Shown one piece after another: positions 7,355 through 19,655 of a stretch of 21,153 bases of DNA (position 1 is the stretch's first letter; every line of letters begins with the position of its first letter). The notes under the pieces were generated by a model, which worked only from the letters and a program-made list of their open reading frames with translations, was not told the DNA's origin and did no database searches. The DNA lies in IMG/VR virus record IMGVR_UViG_3300000116_000062, positions 17,480 to 38,632 of that record, one strand, 5' to 3'. Position numbers and translations under genes: made by a program. The DNA comes from a virus.

Positions 7355-8847
7355 TGTGGAACGTGGTACTTGGTCCACCTGGAACTGGTAAAACTACTTA
7401 TCTATTAAACAAGGTAGAAATGTTTTTAGAAGCAGGTATAAAACCAGATAAACTAGGTTATGTTGCTTTTACTAAAAAAGCTGCAAACGAAGCATTAGTG
7501 AGGGCTGTAGACAAGTTTGAGTTTGACCCAAAAGAACTTGTATACTTTAGAACACTTCACTCATTGTGTTATCACTGGCTTGGTCTAACTAGAAGTGATG
7601 TTATGGCTCGTAGTAATTTACGAGAGTTTAGCAGAACTATTGGTGAGCGTATAAATTCTGCTTGGGACGGTGAAAACATGATGTCATTAAAAAGCAAAGG
7701 GGATACGATGCTGTTTATAGAAAACATGGCACGCAATAGATGTGTGGGTTTTAAAGAGCAGTGGAATCAAGCAGGAAGTAATGTTTCTTGGATGCATTTT
7801 GATTGGTTTGTAAACAACTACACTAATTATAAAGAAGGTAATTTCCTAGTAGACTACACAGACATGCTAGAAATGTTTTTACAATCAAACGGTAAGCCTA
7901 TGTTAGATGTATTAATAGTTGATGAAGCTCAAGACCTTTCTGCACTACAGTGGGAGTGTGTAAAGAAATTAGCAGAAGGTGTAGAAGAAGTTTACATAGC
8001 AGGAGATGATGACCAAGCTATATACCGTTGGGCAGGTGCAGATGTAGAACAGTTTATAGATCTTAAAGGTAAAACTCAATACTTAAAACAATCTTACCGT
8101 GTACCTAGAAAAGTTCATGATGTAGCGTTATCCGTGGTCAAACGTATAGGTAATAGAAAAGAAAAAGTATGGGAGCCTAAAGAAGAGGAGGGCTCAGTAA
8201 CTCATCACGCTAGTTTTGAACATGTAAATATAGATGATGGTGATTGGCTATTCCTAGCTAGAAACAATTATCTATTAAATCAAATAGAAGATTATTTAAA
8301 ACTACAGGGTAGGGTTTATCAAAAAGGTACTAAATCTTCTGTGTCAGAAAACTTAATTACAGCTATTAGAGACTGGGAAGCTTTACGCAAAGGAGCTCAA
8401 ATAGAGGCAGGTAGGATAAGAAAAATATACGGTTATATGAAGGTTGACAAAGGGGTGAAAAGAGGGTATAAAACGCTTAAAACAGTTAGGGATGATATCC
8501 CTTTAAATATGGATCAACTTAAAAAAGATTACGGTTTATTAGCAGACTGTTTGTGGCATGAATGTTTTGATTCTATTGGTAATACTCAAAGAGAATATGT
8601 TATATCTTGTTTAAGAAGAGGTGAAAAATTAATGTCCTCTAAAATAAAGCTAAACACTATACATGCTGCTAAAGGTGGCGAGTCTGAGAACGTTGTACTA
8701 CTTACAGACTTAGCTAATAAAACATGGGAAGAATTATATATAAACCCAGACAATGAATGCCGAGCATTTTATGTAGGGGTAACTAGAACTAAAAATAATC
8801 TGCACATAGTGCAAGGTAAAACACGCAAGGAGTTTTTATTCGTATGA
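7354..8847 (+). CDS. UvrD/Rep-like superfamily 1A helicase
   Basis: A 497-residue ATP-dependent DNA helicase. Motifs in order: Walker A G-P-P-G-T-G-K-T (7-14), motif Ia F-T-K-K-A-A-N-E-A (39-47), Walker B V-D-E-A-Q-D (189-194), motif III G-D-D-D-Q-A-I-Y-R-W-A-G-A (217-229), motif IV S-Y-R-V-P (247-251), motif V T-I-H-A-A-K-G-G-E (435-443) and motif VI V-G-V-T-R-T (474-479). It is compact beside bacterial UvrD (about 720 residues), as is usual for phage Dda-like or UvrD-like helicases. Its start shares one base with the primase stop, so it is probably the fork helicase working with that primase. No DnaB-type helicase is in the window. Confidence 0.93.
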   Translation: MWNVVLGPPGTGKTTYLLNKVEMFLEAGIKPDKLGYVAFTKKAANEALVRAVDKFEFDPKELVYFRTLHSLCYHWLGLTRSDVMARSNLREFSRTIGERINSAWDGENMMSLKSKGDTMLFIENMARNRCVGFKEQWNQAGSNVSWMHFDWFVNNYTNYKEGNFLVDYTDMLEMFLQSNGKPMLDVLIVDEAQDLSALQWECVKKLAEGVEEVYIAGDDDQAIYRWAGADVEQFIDLKGKTQYLKQSYRVPRKVHDVALSVVKRIGNRKEKVWEPKEEEGSVTHHASFEHVNIDDGDWLFLARNNYLLNQIEDYLKLQGRVYQKGTKSSVSENLITAIRDWEALRKGAQIEAGRIRKIYGYMKVDKGVKRGYKTLKTVRDDIPLNMDQLKKDYGLLADCLWHECFDSIGNTQREYVISCLRRGEKLMSSKIKLNTIHAAKGGESENVVLLTDLANKTWEELYINPDNECRAFYVGVTRTKNNLHIVQGKTRKEFLFV

Positions 8848-9422
8848 TGAAAGTTATAAAGAAAGCGTTAGTAGACTATCAGCCAGTGATTACTGAGTGG
8901 GATGAGCCTGTCATACGAGAGTTTGATGGTAAAAAAGTTATAGGTAGACCTACAAAAGCTTACGGAACTAAATCTTTTGAGTATGCTGGTAAACTTTATA
9001 AACCTGAACCGTGGTCTATTTCTATGAGTGTATTAAAAATGGCTACTCAATTATTAATCTATAAAGAGCTAAACAAAATCGTTAGATTTAATTTTTGTCT
9101 TTGTGGTTTATATAAAACAGGAGAAACAGGTATTCCTCATCACTCAGATACTGTACCAACAGAAAATGACTTAGTAGTTGGGGTTTCTTTTGGTGCTGCT
9201 AGAAGCATGGAATGGAATCAATACGATACTTATATAAAAGACCATACAAACACCAGCGAGATAGATAAAAAGATGAAGTGGGCACTACAGAAAACGTATC
9301 TGCTTAATGATGGGGATGTATATATATTTGATGGAGAATCACAGATGAACAGTACTCACGCAATACCTCCTATGGAAAACGTGGGTGAGCGAATAAACTT
9401 AACATTTAGGACAGGTTTATGA
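8844..9422 (+). CDS. AlkB-like 2-oxoglutarate/Fe(II) dioxygenase
   Basis: A 192-residue enzyme of the AlkB branch of 2OG-Fe(II) oxygenases. The iron ligands appear as H100-x-D102 (in P-H-H-S-D) and H172 (N-S-T-H-A-I). R183 and R189 in G-E-R-I-N-L-T-F-R are the 2-oxoglutarate-binding arginines; L-x-D-G-D-V-Y-I-F-D-G-E-S matches the AlkB strand before the distal histidine. AlkB enzymes oxidise methyl groups on bases. The usual phage role is repair of alkylated DNA, but oxidation of a base as a modification step is possible here, since base-chemistry genes follow. Two adjacent ATG codons (8844, 8847) could both serve; the first gives the ATGA overlap. Confidence 0.85.
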   Translation: MMKVIKKALVDYQPVITEWDEPVIREFDGKKVIGRPTKAYGTKSFEYAGKLYKPEPWSISMSVLKMATQLLIYKELNKIVRFNFCLCGLYKTGETGIPHHSDTVPTENDLVVGVSFGAARSMEWNQYDTYIKDHTNTSEIDKKMKWALQKTYLLNDGDVYIFDGESQMNSTHAIPPMENVGERINLTFRTGL

Positions 9423-9484
9423 TAAAAATTTTAGCAGGATTCCTATACTTTCCCTTTACTTGTAAAGTAAAATATACCCTATGA
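9419..9484 (+). CDS. Possible 21-residue coupled mini-ORF
   Basis: An ATG at 9419 overlaps the oxygenase stop as ATGA, and this short frame ends in a TGA that overlaps the next gene's ATG, again as ATGA. The product would be hydrophobic and aromatic (contains G-F-L-Y-F-P-F-T-C). The gene at 9481 has no ribosome site of its own, so passage of ribosomes through this mini-ORF would explain how it is translated. The same stretch carries motifs shared with non-coding gaps, so it may instead be regulatory DNA, or both. Confidence 0.3.
   Translation: MIKILAGFLYFPFTCKVKYTL
9442..9480 (+). promoter_or_regulatory. Candidate regulatory element before the Cys/His/Trp-rich gene
   Basis: Holds CCTATACTTT (9442-9451), TCCCTTTAC (9451-9459), a perfect short inverted repeat CTTTAC-tt-GTAAAG (9454-9467) and TATACCCT (9473-9480) touching the ATG. 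CCTATACTT and TATACCCT occur together again at 18907-18926, and CCTTTAC recurs in other gaps. It could be a promoter or operator; function is inferred from recurrence only. Confidence 0.35.
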
Positions 9485-9948
9485 ATATTTTTAAGTTAGA
9501 TACAACTCCTTTGCTTTGCGCTCAAACGCACTGCGATAAACATGTATCTAAGATGATATTAGAATCAGCTCAGATGCTTTGTACTAGCCTTTGGACTAAC
9601 GGTCAAAGTGCTCCGTATAAGTCTGTACACGCTAAACACCCTTGTACACTATGGGCTGGGGAAAGCCTAGATAACTGGCTTTGGCTTAAAGAGTTAGCTA
9701 TATATTTAAATGAGGAGTTTTGCTGGCGCTACGGGAGGTCAGCTTGTCATAAGTCTATTGACGTAGTCAATGAATTATGCCCCCCACTTATAAGAAGTAA
9801 AGGTTTACAACAACACCCACAATGCATGCCTGATGAGTATAAAGTCACCAATGACCCTATATCTGCGTATCGTAAATACTATATAGGTGAAAAGAATGGT
9901 TTTGCTAAGTGGACTAAACGTGAGGTACCCGAATGGTTTCAAATGTAG
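9481..9948 (+). CDS. Conserved-looking Cys/His/Trp-rich phage protein, function unknown
   Basis: A 155-residue protein with the N-terminal pattern M-N-I-F-x-L-D and C-D-K-H-V-S-K-M-I-L-E-S-A-Q-M-L (about 18-33), then H-P-C-T-L-W (53-58), E-S-L-D-N-W-L-W-L and R-Y-G-R-S-A-C-H-K. I recall similar M-N-I-F proteins in marine phages and cyanophages, without a function I can vouch for. The many Cys, His and Trp residues suggest metal or nucleotide binding. There is no Shine-Dalgarno site before the ATG. It lies between an AlkB-like oxygenase and the putative base-modification protein and overlaps the latter by 16 bases, so it may belong to the same pathway. Confidence 0.72.
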   Translation: MNIFKLDTTPLLCAQTHCDKHVSKMILESAQMLCTSLWTNGQSAPYKSVHAKHPCTLWAGESLDNWLWLKELAIYLNEEFCWRYGRSACHKSIDVVNELCPPLIRSKGLQQHPQCMPDEYKVTNDPISAYRKYYIGEKNGFAKWTKREVPEWFQM

Positions 9949-10763
9949 AAGGTTTTTATGACTATATTAATGAAAGGCATGCTATTTATTTAAAACGCTT
10001 TATAGGAGAACCTCATCCGTGGACTGATGATGAGATACTACAGACGTACAGTTTTTGTAATGTGTATCGTGAGTTAGATAAAGTCACTGTTTGGATACGT
10101 GAAAACTGGAAAGAGCCTTACGCTGACCACCCTAATCTGCCTTTTGCTATGGCTATGGCTCGTCAAATAAATTGGCCAGATACTCTACAGGAACTAGGTT
10201 TTCCTGAGCATTGGAACCCTGAGCGTATTAAAGCTATTATGCAAGGTAGAATGGATAGGAAAGAAAAAGTTTACACAGGTGCGTATATGTTGACTGGTAC
10301 GTTAGGAGGCACTAAAGTAGAGCAAACCATAGATAAAATATTAACACCCCTATATGAAAACCCACCCACTATTTATAAAAATAGTTTAGAAAAAACATGG
10401 GCTGAGTATTTACCGTATGCTGGGTTTAGTGGATTTATGGCTTATGAGGTAGTCACAGATCTACGTCATAGTAAGTATTTAGAAAATGCTGAGGATATTA
10501 TGACTTGGGCTAACGCTGGTCCAGGAGCAAAACGTGGGTTAAATAGAATACACGGTAGATTACTTGAGCAAACTATAAAACCACGTCAGTTAACTATAGA
10601 GATGCAAGAATTATTAGATATGGCAGGCGACTACATAGGAAGTTTTTTACCTGACCTAGAGATGAGAGAAATAGAACACTGCCTGTGTGAATATGATAAA
10701 TATGAAAGAGTACGTCTAGGGGAAGGCAGACCTAGAGCAAAATATAAATATAAAGGAGAATGA
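9933..10763 (+). CDS. Putative DNA base-hypermodification protein (thymine pyrophosphorylase / 5-hmdU kinase helical-domain-like)
   Basis: A 276-residue all-helical protein. The N-terminus has F-Y-D-Y-I-N-E-R-H (8-16), P-W-T-D-D-E-I-L (29-36) and F-C-N-V-Y-R-E-L-D-K-V-T (41-52). This pattern I associate with the related families predicted to act in thymine hypermodification: the alpha-glutamyl/putrescinyl-thymine pyrophosphorylases and the helical domain of 5-hmdU DNA kinases. Further on are F-S-G-F-M-A-Y-E (165-172), a helix-hairpin-helix-like A-G-P-G-A-K-R-G-L-N-R (195-205), and C-L-C-E-Y-D-K-Y-E-R-V-R-L-G-E-G-R-P-R (250-268), which resembles a DNA-glycosylase-like scaffold. No P-loop kinase domain is present. 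GAGG at 9922-9925 supports the start. Which family it belongs to cannot be settled by eye. Confidence 0.65.
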   Translation: MVSNVEGFYDYINERHAIYLKRFIGEPHPWTDDEILQTYSFCNVYRELDKVTVWIRENWKEPYADHPNLPFAMAMARQINWPDTLQELGFPEHWNPERIKAIMQGRMDRKEKVYTGAYMLTGTLGGTKVEQTIDKILTPLYENPPTIYKNSLEKTWAEYLPYAGFSGFMAYEVVTDLRHSKYLENAEDIMTWANAGPGAKRGLNRIHGRLLEQTIKPRQLTIEMQELLDMAGDYIGSFLPDLEMREIEHCLCEYDKYERVRLGEGRPRAKYKYKGE

Positions 10764-10764
10764 T

Positions 10765-11088
10765 GTGGGTGTAAATTCAAAACATATGTTTGAATTAGTC
10801 GATGAAGACGTGCGTGCTTTAGATAAAGCAGAAGAAAGTTACGGAGATAGTTGGCGTAAACGTGGTGGCGTAGGAGCTTTTATGATGTTAGCACGTAAAT
10901 GGGATAGGATAGAAAATCAAACATTTAAGGAGGGCTACGATATATTTGACGCTATAGCTAAAGACCCAACTGATACAGGTATTTTAGATGACATACGAGA
11001 CTTAAGAAGATATTTAATTCTCGTTGAATCTTTTATGACAATAATTGAAGAAAAAAGAGAGGATAAATATGAAGAAAGTAGAGATTAA
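10765..11088 (+). CDS. MazG-like / nucleotide-modification-associated helical protein
   Basis: A 107-residue helical protein with Y-G-D-S-W-R-K-R-G-G-V-G-A-F-M-M-L-A-R-K-W-D-R-I-E (about residues 26-50) followed by D-D-I-R-D-L-R-R-Y-L (75-84). The pattern of a Y-G-x-S-W helix, an R-K-x-x-R-I-E helix and an acidic D-x-x-D-L helix resembles all-alpha NTP pyrophosphatases (MazG-like) and the DUF1599 nucleotide-modification-associated family. Such enzymes hydrolyse or sense (d)NTPs. It starts with GTG, well supported by AAGGAG at 10753-10758, immediately after the base-modification protein and before dUTPase, which supports a nucleotide-pool role. Family assignment is tentative. Confidence 0.55.
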   Translation: MGVNSKHMFELVDEDVRALDKAEESYGDSWRKRGGVGAFMMLARKWDRIENQTFKEGYDIFDAIAKDPTDTGILDDIRDLRRYLILVESFMTIIEEKREDKYEESRD

Positions 11089-11527
11089 ACTAATAGACCC
11101 AAGTTTATTTGACCACACTGACCCACACATACTACCCGAGTATGCTACAGTAGGTTCAGCTGGTCTAGACTTACGGTCAGCGGAAGATTATGAGCTGGCT
11201 CCAGGAGAGTCGCACACATACCGTACAGGGTTAGCTATGTATTTAGGTGACTTTGAACTTTGTGGTATGCTTGTGCCTCGTTCTAGTTTAGGTATTAAAA
11301 AGATACACTTAACTAATACGTTAGGAATTATTGATGCAGATTATCAAGGTGAGTTAATGGTTCCGTTAACTAATAACGGAGAAGATAATATTCTTATAGA
11401 AAAAAGTCAAAGGATAGCACAGTTAGTTATAGTGCCTGTGGTTCAGGTGCTGTGGCAACCAGTTTTAGAATTTAGCGGTATTACTATGCGTAGCATTGGT
11501 GGTTTTGGTAGCACAGGTACAAAGTAG
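11069..11527 (+). CDS. dut: dUTPase (deoxyuridine 5'-triphosphate nucleotidohydrolase)
   Basis: A 152-residue trimeric-type dUTPase with all five motifs: I G-S-A-G-L-D-L-R-S (29-37), II P-R-S-S-L-G-I-K (70-77), III L-G-I-I-D-A-D-Y-Q-G-E-L (85-96), IV S-Q-R-I-A-Q-L-V-I (113-121) and V R-S-I-G-G-F-G-S-T-G (141-150). It converts dUTP to dUMP and pyrophosphate, keeping uracil out of DNA and supplying dUMP to the ThyA-like enzyme encoded nearby. A longer frame from a TTG at 11045 exists, but the ATG at 11069 has a good site (GAGAGGA, 11057-11063) and gives the normal family length. It overlaps the upstream gene by 20 bases. Confidence 0.96.
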   Translation: MKKVEIKLIDPSLFDHTDPHILPEYATVGSAGLDLRSAEDYELAPGESHTYRTGLAMYLGDFELCGMLVPRSSLGIKKIHLTNTLGIIDADYQGELMVPLTNNGEDNILIEKSQRIAQLVIVPVVQVLWQPVLEFSGITMRSIGGFGSTGTK

Positions 11528-11529
11528 TT

Positions 11530-11685
11530 ATGAGAAAAGGAACAAGTAATTTAGAAAATACATTTAAATCTGGTGCTAGAGGTAAAAAGACTTCTATCGG
11601 TTTCGGTAATGTAGGCACCAGCACAATGAATAAAGGTAAAAAACGCATGCGAGGTAAATCTGCATATAGGGGGCAAGGTAAATGA
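11530..11685 (+). CDS. Small basic glycine-rich protein (51 residues)
   Basis: A small gene between dUTPase and the glycosyltransferase. It starts two bases after the dUTPase stop and ends in an ATGA overlap with the next gene, so it fills the gap exactly. The product has 14 Lys/Arg and a single acidic residue in 51, is rich in Gly and Ser, and ends R-M-R-G-K-S-A-Y-R-G-Q-G-K. It is probably disordered and nucleic-acid binding. No good Shine-Dalgarno site is visible, so translation is likely coupled to dUTPase. I recall similar Y-R-G-Q-G-K/R tails in marine phage proteins but cannot name a function. Confidence 0.72.
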   Translation: MRKGTSNLENTFKSGARGKKTSIGFGNVGTSTMNKGKKRMRGKSAYRGQGK

Positions 11686-12467
11686 AAATATATATACCAA
11701 CAAGAGGTAGACCGTTTAATCAAGAAACTTTAAAATGGTTTAATGGAGAAATGAAAAGTAATGGGGAAGTTGTTTTAGTAGTTGACCCAGACGAAGAGGA
11801 AAAGTATGACCACTGGGCTAGTACCCCTAAGATGGTTGTACCTGAAGACTGTATAGGTATTGGTCCAAAGCGTAAATACATTGTAGAAAATACAGATGAC
11901 CCACACATAGTTATGTTAGATGATGACTTACGTTTTTATATTCGTAAAAGTCCAACTGACTGGCATTTAAGATATTTAGAAACTCATGAGTACCCAGCAT
12001 TGTTTGGCTTGCTTGATGAGTGGATGGATCAAGGGTATGCTCATGTAGGGGTTAGTGCTAGAGAGGGTAATAATAGGGTAGAAGAATTATCTGTAGAAAA
12101 CACACGGTATATGCGAGCATTAGGTTATAACTTAAAAGAATTTCCTAGTGATGTTGAGTGGGGTAGGACTCGGGTTATGGAGGACTTTGATATATCTTTA
12201 CAGCTCCTTAGGAGAGGTAAAGCGTGTAAGGTCAGCTACTACTACGCTCAAGGACAAAAGTCCTCTAACGCTGACGGTGGCTGTAGTGAGTGGAGAACTA
12301 TTGACGTACATAATGAGGGAGCTCAAAGGCTTCATGAACTTCACCCTACGTGTGTCAAGATTGTAGAGAAACAAACTAAAACTGCGTGGAACGGTTTACC
12401 ACGTAAAGATGTAATCATAGGTTGGAAAAAAGCCTACAAAGAAGGAGTAGAGAATGCAGGTAATTGA
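11682..12467 (+). CDS. GT-A glycosyltransferase, TET-associated glycosyltransferase (TAGT)-like
   Basis: A 261-residue GT-A-fold enzyme. It begins M-K-I-Y-I-P-T-R-G-R (1-10), followed by a nucleotide-sugar-binding-like part, G-P-K-R-K-Y-I-V-E (61-69), the metal-binding D-D-D (80-82) in V-M-L-D-D-D-L-R-F, and a late acidic motif V-M-E-D-F-D-I-S-L-Q-L-L-R-R-G (165-179), as in inverting GT-A enzymes. The I-P-T/S-R-G-R start with a L-D-D-D-L core resembles the TET/JBP-associated glycosyltransferases that decorate oxidised pyrimidines in phage DNA. Glycosylation of another phage or host target cannot be excluded. It lies between the basic protein and the ThyA-like gene and overlaps the latter by 14 bases. 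Confidence 0.68.
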   Translation: MKIYIPTRGRPFNQETLKWFNGEMKSNGEVVLVVDPDEEEKYDHWASTPKMVVPEDCIGIGPKRKYIVENTDDPHIVMLDDDLRFYIRKSPTDWHLRYLETHEYPALFGLLDEWMDQGYAHVGVSAREGNNRVEELSVENTRYMRALGYNLKEFPSDVEWGRTRVMEDFDISLQLLRRGKACKVSYYYAQGQKSSNADGGCSEWRTIDVHNEGAQRLHELHPTCVKIVEKQTKTAWNGLPRKDVIIGWKKAYKEGVENAGN

Positions 12468-13467
12468 GGTAAGAAACGTTCATGACGCTTTAGTGCGTGG
12501 CATGGATTTATTACAGATAGAAGATTTCACGAATGAGAGTAGGAATGGTAGAGTGTATCAAGCAAAAACTCCAGTAACTACAGTTTATGAAAGACCCAAA
12601 GAAAGAGTTTTGTTTTGGGCTGAACGAGACGCTAACCCATTCTTTCATTTTATGGAAGGTCTATGGATGCTTGACGGTCGTAATGATTTAGAGTTTGTAA
12701 AACACTTTGCTAAAAGTATGGAAAATTATAGTGATGATGGTAAAAGCCTTTGGGGAGCATATGGTTGGAGATGGCGTAGTTATTTTGGCTACGATCAACT
12801 AAGAGTCATTATAGAAAGACTAAAGAAAGATGGCGAAGATAGACGTTCTGTATTACAGATGTGGGACGCTGAAAATGATTTAGGCAGAGACGGTAAAGAT
12901 GTGCCTTGTAACACTTCTATATATTTTAAAGAAGATACTACAGGTTGTTTACAGATGACGGTTAGTAATAGATCTAACGATATTATCTGGGGTGCATATG
13001 GCGCTAACGCAGTACACATGTCTATGCTTCATGAATATATGGCTTCTAATATTGGCAGACCTGTAGGCAGGTATTATCAGATTAGTGATAATTTCCATGC
13101 GTATGAAGACGTGTTTAATAAATTATTAAATAAGTTAATTGGCACAGATGCTTTAGATTTTTATACACAAAGAACAGCCATGAAAAATAACCCATATCTC
13201 AAAGGTGAAGTTGCACCATATTCTATGATAAACGTTAGCCCAGATTTATGGGACATAGACTTAGTTAATTTCTTAGACAGAGTGCCTTTTGAAGACATAG
13301 ACTTTAATGATAGGTTTTTCACAGAGGTTGCTGTACCAATGCAAGATGCTTTTTGGTTACATAAGTTAGGTAAGACAGAAGAAGCTATAATAGAGATACA
13401 AGCATGTGCTGCTACAGATTGGCGCAAAGCATGTTTTGAGTGGTTAGATAGAAGATTAAATAAATAA
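12454..13467 (+). CDS. Thymidylate synthase / pyrimidine hydroxymethylase superfamily enzyme
   Basis: A 337-residue ThyA-superfamily protein, longer than bacterial ThyA (about 264). Seen: L-W-G-A-Y-G-W-R-W-R (99-108), the D-R-R-S region (129-132), catalytic C152 in V-P-C-N, the phosphate-binding and substrate segment R173-S-N-D176, N185 in W-G-A-Y-G-A-N-A, and H215-A-Y217. The family methylates or hydroxymethylates dUMP or dCMP with methylene-tetrahydrofolate. R-S-N-D and P-C-N differ from the usual bacterial forms (R-S-C/A-D, P-C-H); R-S-N-D is the form I recall in T4 dCMP hydroxymethylase, so a hydroxymethylase is possible. N185 fits the Asn that selects uracil. AAGGAG upstream supports the start. 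Confidence 0.85.
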   Translation: MQVIEVRNVHDALVRGMDLLQIEDFTNESRNGRVYQAKTPVTTVYERPKERVLFWAERDANPFFHFMEGLWMLDGRNDLEFVKHFAKSMENYSDDGKSLWGAYGWRWRSYFGYDQLRVIIERLKKDGEDRRSVLQMWDAENDLGRDGKDVPCNTSIYFKEDTTGCLQMTVSNRSNDIIWGAYGANAVHMSMLHEYMASNIGRPVGRYYQISDNFHAYEDVFNKLLNKLIGTDALDFYTQRTAMKNNPYLKGEVAPYSMINVSPDLWDIDLVNFLDRVPFEDIDFNDRFFTEVAVPMQDAFWLHKLGKTEEAIIEIQACAATDWRKACFEWLDRRLNK

Positions 13468-13476
13468 GGAGATAAC

Positions 13477-14157
13477 ATGATACCTCAATGGTCATATAGC
13501 AGATTAAGTTGTTTTGAAAAATGCCCTAAACAGGCGGAATTTAAATTCATTAAAAAGATAAAAGAGCCTGGAAGCCCAGCAATGGATAGGGGTAAAGATA
13601 TCCATAAATTATGCGAAGATTTTATAAGGGGAAGCCTAGAAGAAATGCCAGCTCAGTTACAAGACTTTGAAGATGCTTTTGTATTACTCAAAGATCTGTA
13701 TCTACACGGTCACGTTATTTGTGAAAGTGATTGGGCGATAGATAAAAACTGGGTGAAGACTGGGTGGTTTGAAGATGATACTTGGGGTAGAGCAAAAGTA
13801 GATGCTTTTGTATACGAGGAAGGTATCAGTAAAGAAGCCAGAGTTATAGACTTTAAAACAGGTAGATACGACGGTAATCAAGAAGTACATAGAGAACAGT
13901 GTGAGCTTTATGGGGCTATAGCTCTAAGTCGTTACCCTGAATTAGAAAGTATAACTACAGAGATGTGGTATTTAGATCACGGTAAGATCGACCGTTACAT
14001 ATACACACCAGAAAGTATTAAAGTAAAACAAGATAGATTAAACCTAAGAGCTATCGCTATGACTACAGCAGAAGAGTTTCCAGCTAACCCTTCTACATTT
14101 AAATGTAAATGGTGTTACTTTGGAAAACAGAATATGTGCAGAGAGGCAGCAATATGA
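13477..14157 (+). CDS. Cas4/RecB-family PD-(D/E)XK exonuclease
   Basis: A 226-residue nuclease. The N-terminal signature W-S-Y-S-R-L-S-C-F-E-K-C-P (5-17) is typical of the Cas4/AddB/RecB group. Catalytic residues: H43 in D-I-H-K, D109 (A-K-V-D-A), D125 and K127 in V-I-D-F-K-T-G, then Q141 and Y145 (Q-C-E-L-Y). C16 with C210, C213 and C221 would hold a 4Fe-4S cluster as in Cas4, Dna2 and AddB. Such phage enzymes act in DNA end processing and recombination. A strong AAGGAG lies at 13466-13471. There is no CRISPR array nearby, so this is a replication or recombination nuclease. It overlaps PolA by four bases. Confidence 0.88.
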   Translation: MIPQWSYSRLSCFEKCPKQAEFKFIKKIKEPGSPAMDRGKDIHKLCEDFIRGSLEEMPAQLQDFEDAFVLLKDLYLHGHVICESDWAIDKNWVKTGWFEDDTWGRAKVDAFVYEEGISKEARVIDFKTGRYDGNQEVHREQCELYGAIALSRYPELESITTEMWYLDHGKIDRYIYTPESIKVKQDRLNLRAIAMTTAEEFPANPSTFKCKWCYFGKQNMCREAAI

Positions 14158-16037
14158 CACAAATGGTTATGGAATTTTTAGTACCAGAAACAGATTGGAG
14201 TCCGCCCACCTCTTTCCCTGATTTAACTAATCAAAAAGAAATAGCTATTGATTTAGAAACCTGTGATCCGTGGCTCAGGTCTCATGGTCCAGGATGGGCT
14301 TGTAAAGACAGGGGTTATATTATAGGCATAGCTGTAGCAACGGAAGGTTGGCGTGGATATTTTCCTGTGGCGCATACTACTGGAGCTAATCTAGATAAGG
14401 GTGTGGTTCGTAGGTGGCTACAGAAACAGTTAGATGCACCAAACGCTAAGATATTTCATAACGCTCAGTATGACGTAGGTTGGTTGATGGCTGAAGGCTA
14501 TACAATCAACGGTGAGATACACGATACTATGATGGCTGCTCCGTTACTGAATGAAAATGAATATAGTTATTCTCTTAATAGTTTAGGTAAGATGTACCTT
14601 GATGAAGTAAAAGATGAAACTATGCTCACAGAAGCTGCACAAATATTCGGAGTTGACCCTAAATCTGAGATGTATAAGTTAGCCCCTAAATATGTAGGTG
14701 TCTATGCTGAGCAAGACGCTGACCTTACCTATAGGCTTTGGCAAATATTAAAGAAAGGTATTAGCGAAGACAACATAACTGAGATTTATAATCTAGAGCG
14801 TGCATTATTACCTGTGCTTATAGACATGAGATCAAAAGGTGTGCGTATAGATACAGATAAAGCACAACAGGTAAAACAGCAACTTAAAAAAGATGAAGAT
14901 AAAGTAATCAAAGAGATTAAAAATTGGTATGGCATAGCACCTGATTTATGGGCAGCACAATCTTTAGCACAAGTGTTTGATAGGGCAGGGCTTGAATACC
15001 CAAGAACCCCTAAAACACAAGCCCCTAGTTTTGTAGCTAACTGGTTAGAGAGTCAAGAACATAAATTACCTATGGCTATAGCTAAAGCTAGAAAGCTTAA
15101 CAAAGCTAGAACTACGTTTATAGATAAAATGATACTAGAGCATTTAGTTGACGGTAGAATCCACGGGGAGCTACACCCTTTGAGGTCAGATAGTGGAGGT
15201 ACAGTAACAGGTAGGTTTAGTTGTAGTAACCCAAACCTTCAACAAGTACCAGCTAGAGATCCTATGATAGGTAACTTAATAAGATCATTATTTATACCAG
15301 AAGAAGGTAGGCACTGGGGATGCTTTGACTACTCTCAACAAGAGCCTAGACTTACCGTACATTATTCTGTACTAACTCAACAGGATGGGGCAGAAGAAGC
15401 AGCACTAGACTACCACGACGACGACGCAGACTTTCATCAGATAGTAGCAGACATGGCTAACATAAGCCGTAAGGAAGCCAAAATTATTAATCTAGGGTTA
15501 AGTTACGGTATGGGTAAAGATAAGCTAACGACTCAGTTGGGTATCAGTAATGAAGAAGCTGAGATACTTTTTGATCAGTATCATGAACGAGTACCTTTTG
15601 TTCGTGGACTGCGTGACTCTGCTGCTCGTCAAGGGGCTAACAGAGGTTACGTTAAAACTATTCTAGGTCGTAAGTGTAGGTTTAATCTATACGAGCCTCA
15701 CGATAGAAGAGAAATGCCACTACCTTTTGATAAAGCCATGGATGAATATGGCGGTAGATTAAAAAGAGCGTACACCTATAAAGCTATGAATAAACTTATA
15801 CAGGGTTCAGCTGCAGATATGACAAAGCAAGCTATGCTTGATCTATATAAGGAGGGTTTACTTGCCCACACCCAAGTACACGATGAACTTAATATATCTG
15901 TAGAAAATAAACAAGAGTGTGAAAAAGTTATAGAAATAATGAGAGACTGTGTAGAACTGAAAGTACCTAATAAAGTGGATGCAGAAATTGGTCCAAGCTG
16001 GGGTAACGTTACAGATTATAGAGAATATTTTAAATGA
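14154..16037 (+). CDS. polA: Family A DNA polymerase (Pol I-like) with 3'-5' exonuclease
   Basis: A 627-residue replicative polymerase. Exonuclease: Exo I D33-x-E35 (I-D-L-E-T), Exo II F-H-N-A-Q-Y-D (101-107), Exo III Y184-x3-D188. Polymerase: T-G-R-F (352-355), motif A D392-Y-S-Q-Q-E-P-R, motif B R439...K443...L447...Y451-G, and motif C H576-D-E578. There is no 5'-3' exonuclease domain, as is usual in phages. The residue equivalent to E. coli F762 is Leu (L447). The start at 14154 is chosen because it makes the ATGA overlap and has GAGAGG upstream; a longer frame from 14109 would run inside the nuclease gene. It works with the primase and helicase encoded at 5843-8847. Confidence 0.97.
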   Translation: MTQMVMEFLVPETDWSPPTSFPDLTNQKEIAIDLETCDPWLRSHGPGWACKDRGYIIGIAVATEGWRGYFPVAHTTGANLDKGVVRRWLQKQLDAPNAKIFHNAQYDVGWLMAEGYTINGEIHDTMMAAPLLNENEYSYSLNSLGKMYLDEVKDETMLTEAAQIFGVDPKSEMYKLAPKYVGVYAEQDADLTYRLWQILKKGISEDNITEIYNLERALLPVLIDMRSKGVRIDTDKAQQVKQQLKKDEDKVIKEIKNWYGIAPDLWAAQSLAQVFDRAGLEYPRTPKTQAPSFVANWLESQEHKLPMAIAKARKLNKARTTFIDKMILEHLVDGRIHGELHPLRSDSGGTVTGRFSCSNPNLQQVPARDPMIGNLIRSLFIPEEGRHWGCFDYSQQEPRLTVHYSVLTQQDGAEEAALDYHDDDADFHQIVADMANISRKEAKIINLGLSYGMGKDKLTTQLGISNEEAEILFDQYHERVPFVRGLRDSAARQGANRGYVKTILGRKCRFNLYEPHDRREMPLPFDKAMDEYGGRLKRAYTYKAMNKLIQGSAADMTKQAMLDLYKEGLLAHTQVHDELNISVENKQECEKVIEIMRDCVELKVPNKVDAEIGPSWGNVTDYREYFK

Positions 16038-16432
16038 TAAAAGGTTTTACCTGCGGTTGTTTTGATTTGCTACATGCTGGTCATATAGTGATGCTAAAAG
16101 AAACAAAAGAAAATTGTGATTACTTAATTGTAGGTCTACAAACAGATCCATCAATTGACAGAAAAGAAAAGAATCCACCTGTACAATCAGTTTACGAAAG
16201 GTTTGTTCAACTAAACGCAGTTAAGTATGTAGACGAGATAATACCATACGACACTGAAGAAAGTCTTATAGATTTACTAGAGTCTACACCTATTGATATC
16301 AGGTTTGTGGGTGAAGATTATACAAACATAAGTTTTACAGGTGAAGGTCTGCACGAGATTTTTTACACAAGTAGAAAACATTCGTTTAGCACAAGTGATT
16401 TAAGGAGGAGAGTATCCAATGAAGAAAGCTGA
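16034..16432 (+). CDS. Cytidylyltransferase-like nucleotidyltransferase (TagD-like)
   Basis: A 132-residue HxGH-class nucleotidyltransferase, normal length for glycerol-3-phosphate cytidylyltransferases. Motifs: G-C-F-D-L-L-H-A-G-H (8-17, with H14 and H17), Y-E-R at 54-56, V-G-E-D-Y (92-96) and a C-terminal S-F-S-T-S-D-L-R (117-124) corresponding to the S-T-x-L-R motif. It would transfer CMP or AMP to a phosphorylated small molecule. No partner using the product (such as a teichoic acid or lipid gene) is visible, so its substrate is open: host envelope chemistry, cofactor metabolism, or a donor for the modification genes. It begins at an ATGA overlap with PolA. Confidence 0.82.
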   Translation: MIKGFTCGCFDLLHAGHIVMLKETKENCDYLIVGLQTDPSIDRKEKNPPVQSVYERFVQLNAVKYVDEIIPYDTEESLIDLLESTPIDIRFVGEDYTNISFTGEGLHEIFYTSRKHSFSTSDLRRRVSNEES

Positions 16433-18953: not shown

Positions 18954-19655
18954 ATGCAACCCCCTCCGTACCTGATTAAAAACTTTTTACTTACTATTAA
19001 AGCTGAGTGGATGCTAGATAAAACTACTCTTGAGTTAACTAAAGATTCTATGAAAAGTTTACAGGAGTTTCATCAAAGTGAAGGGTTAGGTGATGTGAAC
19101 AATTTACTGCAAGAATATGTCACTGACCACGGGAATGATATATATTCTGTGCCTTTATTTACGCAAGAGTTTTGTGACACCATGTTAGACGAAATAGAGA
19201 ATATGAAACAACATTTGGCTTTTGAACCTAACGCAGAAGAAGATGAACTTAGACAGATACCAGAAATAATACTTCACGAAAAAGCACCAGAATTATTTAA
19301 CTCGATGCTTGGCGTAGTCTTTAATGTTATGAACCCTATCTTTATGTCAATATGGCAACGTTACTGTAGTTCTGCTTCAACTATACAGATTGCGAACTAT
19401 AACGTAAAAGATAAAAAGCAAGGTGCGTGGCACCATGACCAGACTGCAGATATTAGTATGGTTGTACCGTTAAACACTGGCAACTATAAAGGTGGTGGAA
19501 CTGAGTTTCATGGTCGTACTACTGTAGAACCGTTACCGAATGGGCATGCTTTATTTTTCCCTAGCTTTACACACATGCACCGTGGCTTACCAGTTGATGA
19601 AGACGGTGACCGTTACTTGCTGGTATTTTGGTTGTACGGTGGTGGTAATGATTAG
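18954..19655 (+). CDS. Prolyl-4-hydroxylase-like 2OG-Fe(II) oxygenase
   Basis: A 233-residue oxygenase. The N-terminal 60 residues are helical and unassigned. The catalytic double-stranded beta helix is at about 140-230: iron ligands H160-x-D162 (W-H-H-D), the strand Y-K-G-G-G-T-E-F (178-185) typical of P4H-like enzymes, distal H209 in H-M-H-R-G-L-P-V, and R220 in G-D-R-Y-L-L-V-F-W for 2-oxoglutarate. Such enzymes hydroxylate proteins, small molecules or nucleobases; the target is unknown. It differs clearly from the AlkB-like enzyme at 8844, so the phage carries two separate 2OG oxygenases. GGAG six bases before the ATG supports the start. Confidence 0.85.
   Translation: MQPPPYLIKNFLLTIKAEWMLDKTTLELTKDSMKSLQEFHQSEGLGDVNNLLQEYVTDHGNDIYSVPLFTQEFCDTMLDEIENMKQHLAFEPNAEEDELRQIPEIILHEKAPELFNSMLGVVFNVMNPIFMSIWQRYCSSASTIQIANYNVKDKKQGAWHHDQTADISMVVPLNTGNYKGGGTEFHGRTTVEPLPNGHALFFPSFTHMHRGLPVDEDGDRYLLVFWLYGGGND

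Follow-up and report, generated by a model that had tools for sequence, protein, structure and literature searches.

We describe a candidate base-modification locus in a 21,153-nt stretch of viral DNA (hereafter the window), which covers positions 17,480-38,632 of the 38,632-base record IMGVR_UViG_3300000116_000062. The locus is probably a thymine-hypermodification cassette of the type found in phage M6, with tailoring by glycosylation instead of phosphorylation. Three proteins form its core: a stand-alone helical protein of the HMUDK_hel family (HEL), a TET-associated glycosyltransferase (TAGT) and an enzyme of the thymidylate synthase (TS) superfamily (ThyA). The assignment is based on gene identities, diagnostic residues, synteny, the mutual exclusivity of TAGT and a P-loop 5-hydroxymethyldeoxyuridine (5-hmdU) kinase, and the in-place replacement of one tailoring enzyme by another. 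An initial annotation of the sequence had described an almost unbroken run of eight genes and proposed a base-hypermodification locus. All eight open reading frames (ORFs) were recovered at their coordinates on the + strand, almost gap-free, and searches against Pfam, PHROGs and NCBIfam profiles, together with recurrent synteny, bear out the HEL, TAGT and ThyA assignments. The observation is thus confirmed, and its interpretation is partly supported: HEL, TAGT and ThyA belong to the locus, whereas some of the other genes once counted with them probably do not.

Core proteins of the cassette

HEL (9933..10763, + strand) matches PF18723 at 9.5e-47. The initial annotation had likened it both to pyrophosphorylases and to the helical families of 5-hmdU kinases. 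The family likeness holds, but "pyrophosphorylase" is an older name (aGPT-PPlase1) and Pfam now lists the family under 5-hmdU DNA kinase, as its helical domain. Homologues from phages Sonora and M6 share 44-45% identity with the protein. Residues invariant among 92 HEL proteins include F41, R46, D49, K128, F168, D176, G196-P197-G198, G202, C252, E253 and K256. An AlphaFold2 model is all-helical, with a predicted local distance difference test score (pLDDT) of 95. A Foldseek search of this model against the PDB gave no significant match; the top TM-scores (0.3-0.4, E > 1) belong to the helix-hairpin-helix DNA glycosylases MagIII and AlkA, a likeness that we take only as a hint. Searches of the HEL and TAGT sequences against PDB sequences gave no matches.

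TAGT (11682..12467, + strand) is a GT-A-like glycosyltransferase that matches PF20691 at 2.8e-22 (80.1 bits against a cut-off of 27.5) and phrog_842 at 3.2e-50. Its DxD-type metal-binding motif, D80-D81-D82, reads DDD in all 42 aligned homologues. In T-even phages, members of the family are predicted to glycosylate DNA (PMC13390438). By profile, the proteins starting at 9933 and 11682 both fall within base-modification families. PaMx11 and Microbacterium Golden were considered as cultured models for TAGT and rejected, as no TAGT is annotated beside HEL in either.

ThyA (12454..13467, + strand) matches phrog_5131 at 4.2e-121 and Thymidylat_synt at 3.7e-18, and is about 49% identical to its M6 homologue. 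The R-S-N-D motif reported in the initial annotation is present as R173-S174-N175-D176. Two further positions are informative. D149 lies 3 residues before the catalytic Cys C152, and Asp is found there in 134 of 135 homologues; N185 occupies the base-specificity position, which is Asn instead of Asp in 134 of the 135, the window's enzyme included. In the T4 enzyme these two positions are published markers for hydroxymethylation and for preference of dCMP over dUMP, respectively (PMC6400193), and the T4-type cytosine-specificity Asp (T4 D179) is not present in the window's ThyA. The Pfam TS match ends at position 222 of 266, and a TS-like C-terminal match is absent. Together, D149, N185 and the truncated match point to a predicted dUMP hydroxymethylase.

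A close counterpart is the cassette of M6 and its relatives (Yuavirus), where the genes for homologous HEL (~44%) and ThyA (~49%) also stand shortly before that for a family A DNA polymerase; across M6 (Pseudomonas) and Sonora (Stenotrophomonas), identities of the two proteins are 44-50%. M6 DNA contains 5-(2-aminoethyl)deoxyuridine (5-NedU), thought to be made via 5-hydroxymethyldeoxyuridine and a 5hmdU DNA kinase (PMC6449724), and its hypermodification cluster has been listed (PMC9476957). M6 encodes a P-loop 5-hmdU kinase (PF18748), an amino acid:DNA transferase (ADDT), a pyridoxal phosphate (PLP) enzyme and a radical S-adenosylmethionine (SAM) enzyme; the window lacks these and has TAGT instead. 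Likewise, the Sonora locus has kinase and ADDT where the window has TAGT.

Partner enzymes of HEL across loci

Scans of viral contigs and genomes yielded 372 HEL loci, which form 190 clusters at 90% identity. TAGT is present in 38 clusters, the kinase in 45, both in 0 and neither in 107 (Fisher p 9e-6, uncorrected for kinship). HEL, TAGT and ThyA occur together in 37 of the 190, and their order is conserved across dozens of marine contigs; because the three recur jointly in this way, the arrangement is not due to chance. Whole-record searches found TAGT in 42 of 50 records and the kinase in 0 of these 42, several of them ~60 kb long, and iterated profiles detected the kinase in 0 TAGT-bearing clusters. 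The ADDT, PLP and radical SAM tailoring enzymes follow the same division, being frequent in kinase-class clusters and found in no TAGT-class cluster. An ORF combining ADDT with a GNAT acetyltransferase domain lies directly upstream of HEL in one locus (L230:3477-5060).

Many of the phage loci with neither TAGT nor kinase have a GT-B-like glycosyltransferase adjoining HEL. These enzymes fall into two families (PF00534, 1.3e-4; PF13524, 5.8e-7), the first of which also matches solved glycosyltransferases at 1.8e-5. Other such loci carry a methyltransferase-like (MT) protein (PF13489, 2e-5). Among 102 clusters with ThyA and flanks of 4 kb or more on each side, TAGT is found in 32, the kinase in 28, GT-B in 17, MT in 9 and none of these in 16. 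No cluster of this set holds two classes, compared with an average of 20 and a minimum of 10 in shuffles; as the GT-B and MT families were defined from loci free of kinase and TAGT, this exclusivity is partly built in, whereas that between TAGT and kinase is unaffected. Outside the set, one locus (L233) carries both TAGT and GT-B. TAGT or GT-B is doubled in some loci, which would fit disaccharides.

Direct replacement was seen in four pairs of loci from related phages (L047/L069, L284/L247, L202/L206 and L282/L240). In each, one member has TAGT and the other a GT-B gene instead, among many flanking genes in shared order that are often 55-80% identical. Some pairs differ in other genes as well, such as a radical SAM SPASM protein, YfbR or dUTPase. 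A HEL tree of 111 rows requires 21 or more changes of partner label, and a wider FastTree 38, counts that tree error inflates. These patterns suggest that the tailoring enzyme sits in an exchangeable slot, which may hold TAGT, the kinase or an unrelated glycosyltransferase.

Several observations touch the content of this slot. A direct fusion of HEL to a slot enzyme was looked for, and none was found. The MT protein is conserved at ~280-310 aa in nine HEL and ThyA loci (L239, L253, L277, L280, L285, L290, L292, L296 and L300). Proteins assigned to no Pfam family occupy the slot position near HEL and ThyA in three others (L278:2339-3337, L265:8206-9938 and L242:2465-5021) and are candidates for further tailoring enzymes. 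A SPASM-type radical SAM protein adjoins HEL and ThyA in glycosyltransferase-class loci L079, L282, L284, L261, L291 and L262, possibly for a modified sugar or a second tailoring step.

Parts of this picture have precedents. The initial annotation had suggested a new combination of genes, which is too strong a claim: in HTVC023P-type pelagiphages a thymidylate synthase, aG/PT-PPlase1 and a putative beta-glucosyl-HMC-alpha-glucosyltransferase lie near PolA, and a 2022 pelagiphage study already notes this combination, treating it as M6-like hypermodification of possibly broadened function (PMC9599517). No discussion of kinase absence or of slot-enzyme exchange was found in the consulted passages of that paper. 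The cultured Brevibacterium phage LuckyBarnes (NC_047851) has contiguous ThyA-TAGT-TAGT-HEL genes with a MazG-like domain fused to ThyA, and its whole genome contains no PF18748 kinase. It differs from the window's phage in being very divergent (HEL ~30%), in its two TAGTs and in its actinobacterial host. Two elements look new, namely the exchangeable slot and the view that HEL is a shared adaptor instead of a kinase component. We found no earlier account of the exclusivity, the slot or the adaptor in a literature search that did not cover the main primary papers on the pathway.

Proposed pathway and its alternatives

The pathway that we infer, including all of its chemistry, the sugar, the role of HEL and a protective purpose, would begin with conversion of dUMP to 5-hydroxymethyl-dUMP by the ThyA-family enzyme. 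The product would be raised to the triphosphate and incorporated into DNA by the phage polymerase, taking the place of some thymines. Stand-alone HEL, the proposed 5-hmdU-DNA recognition subunit, would then recognise and perhaps expose 5-hmdU in duplex DNA, and TAGT would attach a sugar to the hydroxymethyl group of 5-hmdU. The resulting glycosyl-5-hmdU would be base-J-like and may protect against restriction. A MazG-like protein and dUTPase (a YfbR-like nucleotidase in relatives) would adjust the dUMP and dTMP pools. T4 beta-GT glucosylates 5-hydroxymethyluracil (5hmU) in a duplex only if it is mispaired, opposite G (PMC4111573), so an accessory such as HEL may be needed for 5hmU:A.

The predicted product resembles known modifications in part. 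Base J of kinetoplastids is likewise a glycosylated 5-hydroxymethyluracil in DNA, but there JBP oxidises thymine in DNA, whereas here the hydroxymethyl group is predicted to be introduced at the mononucleotide level. In T6-like systems, TAGT-family enzymes also act on a hydroxymethylated pyrimidine in DNA; that pyrimidine is 5-hydroxymethylcytosine (5hmC), to which a second sugar is probably added, as opposed to the 5hmU predicted here.

We regard as evenly balanced the broader proposal that HEL is a general 5-hmdU-DNA adaptor, not a part of the kinase, and that marine phages make a range of previously undescribed glycosylated thymines with a chassis of dUMP hydroxymethylase, HEL and often the MazG-like protein that takes exchangeable effectors in a single gene slot. 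The proposed effectors are the P-loop kinase, the GT-A TAGT, the two GT-B-like families and the methyltransferase-like family. If true, sugar-decorated, base-J-like thymine would be common among the abundant phages of the ocean through modular, swappable tailoring, and a family that Pfam currently names for a kinase domain would be recast. The TAGT, GT-B and methyltransferase-like slot enzymes, together with HEL, are targets in the search for new DNA bases and for enzymes that write on 5hmU:A.

Several points weigh against glycosylation of thymine with HEL as adaptor. HEL has no confident structural relative, and genomic context is the sole basis of its adaptor role. TAGTs reported from other systems act on 5hmC derivatives. 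A second published hydroxymethylase signature, Ser-x-Tyr (T4 S94-x-Y96), is not obvious in the window's ThyA, which reads G101-A102-Y103. Finally, as the initial annotation had noted, a glycosyltransferase is present and no P-loop 5-hmdU kinase (PF18748) was found, yet the 38.6-kb record is incomplete and thus weak on absence.

The alternative with most in its favour, which we consider possible though doubtful, is that TAGT glycosylates without HEL. HEL would then have a separate task, such as a second modification, a catalytic activity of its own, or binding to modified DNA during packaging or to protect it. Many bacterial and archaeal loci have HEL without kinase, TAGT or nearby ThyA; the invariant HEL residues include the polar R46, D49, K128, D176, C252, E253 and K256; no structural template constrains its role; and the old name "pyrophosphorylase" implied catalysis. 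Against this, HEL remains beside ThyA and the slot enzyme in phage groups while the slot enzyme changes, and Pfam treats HEL as a domain of a kinase that acts on 5-hmdU. Among the archaeal homologues, the fetched flanks of haloarchaeal and nanohaloarchaeal HEL genes (L326, L328, L329, L331 and L335) contained no ThyA, kinase or TAGT.

Modification of cytosine is unlikely. Here the ThyA enzyme would make 5hm-dCMP and TAGT a T4-like glycosyl-5hmC, as the naming of phrog_842 for 5hmC glycosylation and the activity of T-even TAGT would have it; the nearest solved relative of the window's ThyA is, moreover, a CMP hydroxymethylase. However, the specificity position carries Asn, not Asp, as in nearly all homologues, and the enzyme is closely akin to that of M6, a phage with hypermodified thymine. 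Still less probable is that a divergent or host kinase continues to phosphorylate 5-hmdU while TAGT adds sugar to another product. A divergent kinase might evade profiles, and in two records a kinase did score below the family cut-off, but the absence from all TAGT-bearing clusters and whole records described above argues against it. Plain nucleotide metabolism (thymidylate synthase, dUTPase and the MazG-like protein) beside an unrelated glycosyltransferase moron is the least probable: although dUTPase and MazG-like genes are common in phages and neither AlkB nor phrog_624 is a cassette-specific neighbour, ThyA has hydroxymethylase-type residues and no TS-like C-terminal match, and the tight, recurrent HEL-TAGT-ThyA synteny is one in which other glycosyltransferases substitute in place.

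Accessory genes, neighbours and host

The small helical protein at 10765..11088 (+ strand) has a putative MazG-like fold and no Pfam family; searches against Pfam and PDB sequences gave no match. Its AlphaFold2 model is a small helical bundle (pLDDT 89) whose top PDB fold matches are mostly MazG/DCTPP1-type (dCTPase-type) pyrophosphohydrolases, weak and not significant (E > 1). It is kept in 28/36 TAGT, 10/36 kinase and 11/11 MT-class viral clusters, and also in GT-B loci. A related domain forms the C-terminal part of ThyA both in LuckyBarnes and at loci on bacterial chromosomes (a search of 16 gave 15 ORFs of this kind, E 2e-9 to 1e-4), and this fusion ties the MazG-like protein to the hydroxymethylase. 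Bacterial chromosomal loci in which HEL adjoins a long ThyA with such a C-terminus (L351, L343, L344, L356, L367, L369, L373, L376, L378 and L380) possibly represent a system by which cells modify bases or defend themselves. In the Brevundimonas locus (L351) the two genes are separated by one for a TylF-like methyltransferase, and an Nmad2 protein is encoded nearby.

The dUTPase (11045..11527, + strand; 6.4e-30), whose family call in the initial annotation was correct, would supply dUMP and is optional. It occurs in 6/36 viral TAGT clusters, in none of them alongside the YfbR-like 5'-deoxynucleotidase (PF12917, 1.6e-17), to which it is an alternative in only part of the window's clade. The nucleotidase is common across most phage classes. 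The 51-residue basic protein (11530..11685, + strand), with a weak PHROG match only, adjoins the module solely in the closest relatives (L007, L008 and L087-L090); beyond these just two stray matches were found, far from the module, and it was rejected as a component.

The AlkB-like 2-oxoglutarate (2OG) oxygenase at 8844..9422 (+ strand) was also correctly identified (PF13532 2OG-FeII_Oxy_2, 7.2e-16) and has the AlkB RxNxTxR motif. Its proposed part as the pathway oxygenase did not stand: it is missing from many core-bearing loci and varies in position in others, and ThyA would already provide the hydroxymethyl group. It is probably an optional neighbour outside the pathway. A TET_JBP profile gave no match, and the only 2OG oxygenases among the scanned proteins were of the AlkB-type PF13532 and PF13640 families. 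One of the latter, a second 2OG-Fe(II) oxygenase (18954-19655; PF13640, 1.2e-8), recurs downstream within the window's clade. The Cys/His/Trp-rich protein at 9481..9948 (+ strand; phrog_624, 1.2e-50) is optional and not constant across loci.

Immediately after ThyA lies a PD-(D/E)XK nuclease (13477..14157, + strand; PF12705, 2.5e-16), syntenic in 26/36 viral TAGT clusters. It is followed by the family A DNA polymerase (14109..16037, + strand; PF00476, 1.3e-62), a setting in which a modified dNTP could be built into DNA. A cytidylyltransferase-like nucleotidyltransferase (16034..16432, + strand; PF01467, 1.2e-16; TIGR02199, 2.2e-20, below cut-off) is a possible maker of the activated donor. It occurs with glycosyltransferase classes, mainly in one lineage, and in 0 kinase-class clusters.

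The record ends in a small terminase gene, and large terminase, portal and capsid genes are absent among its ORFs; the 38.6-kb record is a genome fragment. Megablast against cultured phages found no close DNA relatives. A cluster for curli and the type VIII secretion system (T8SS), as described for HTVC023P-type pelagiphages (PMC9599517), marks the phage as HTVC023P-type pelagiphage-like, and by this analogy the host is probably marine SAR11. The cluster lies upstream of the window in the same genome (L006:2711-7426) and encodes CsgF, CsgG, possible curlin repeats, FecR and a CHASE2-adenylate cyclase.

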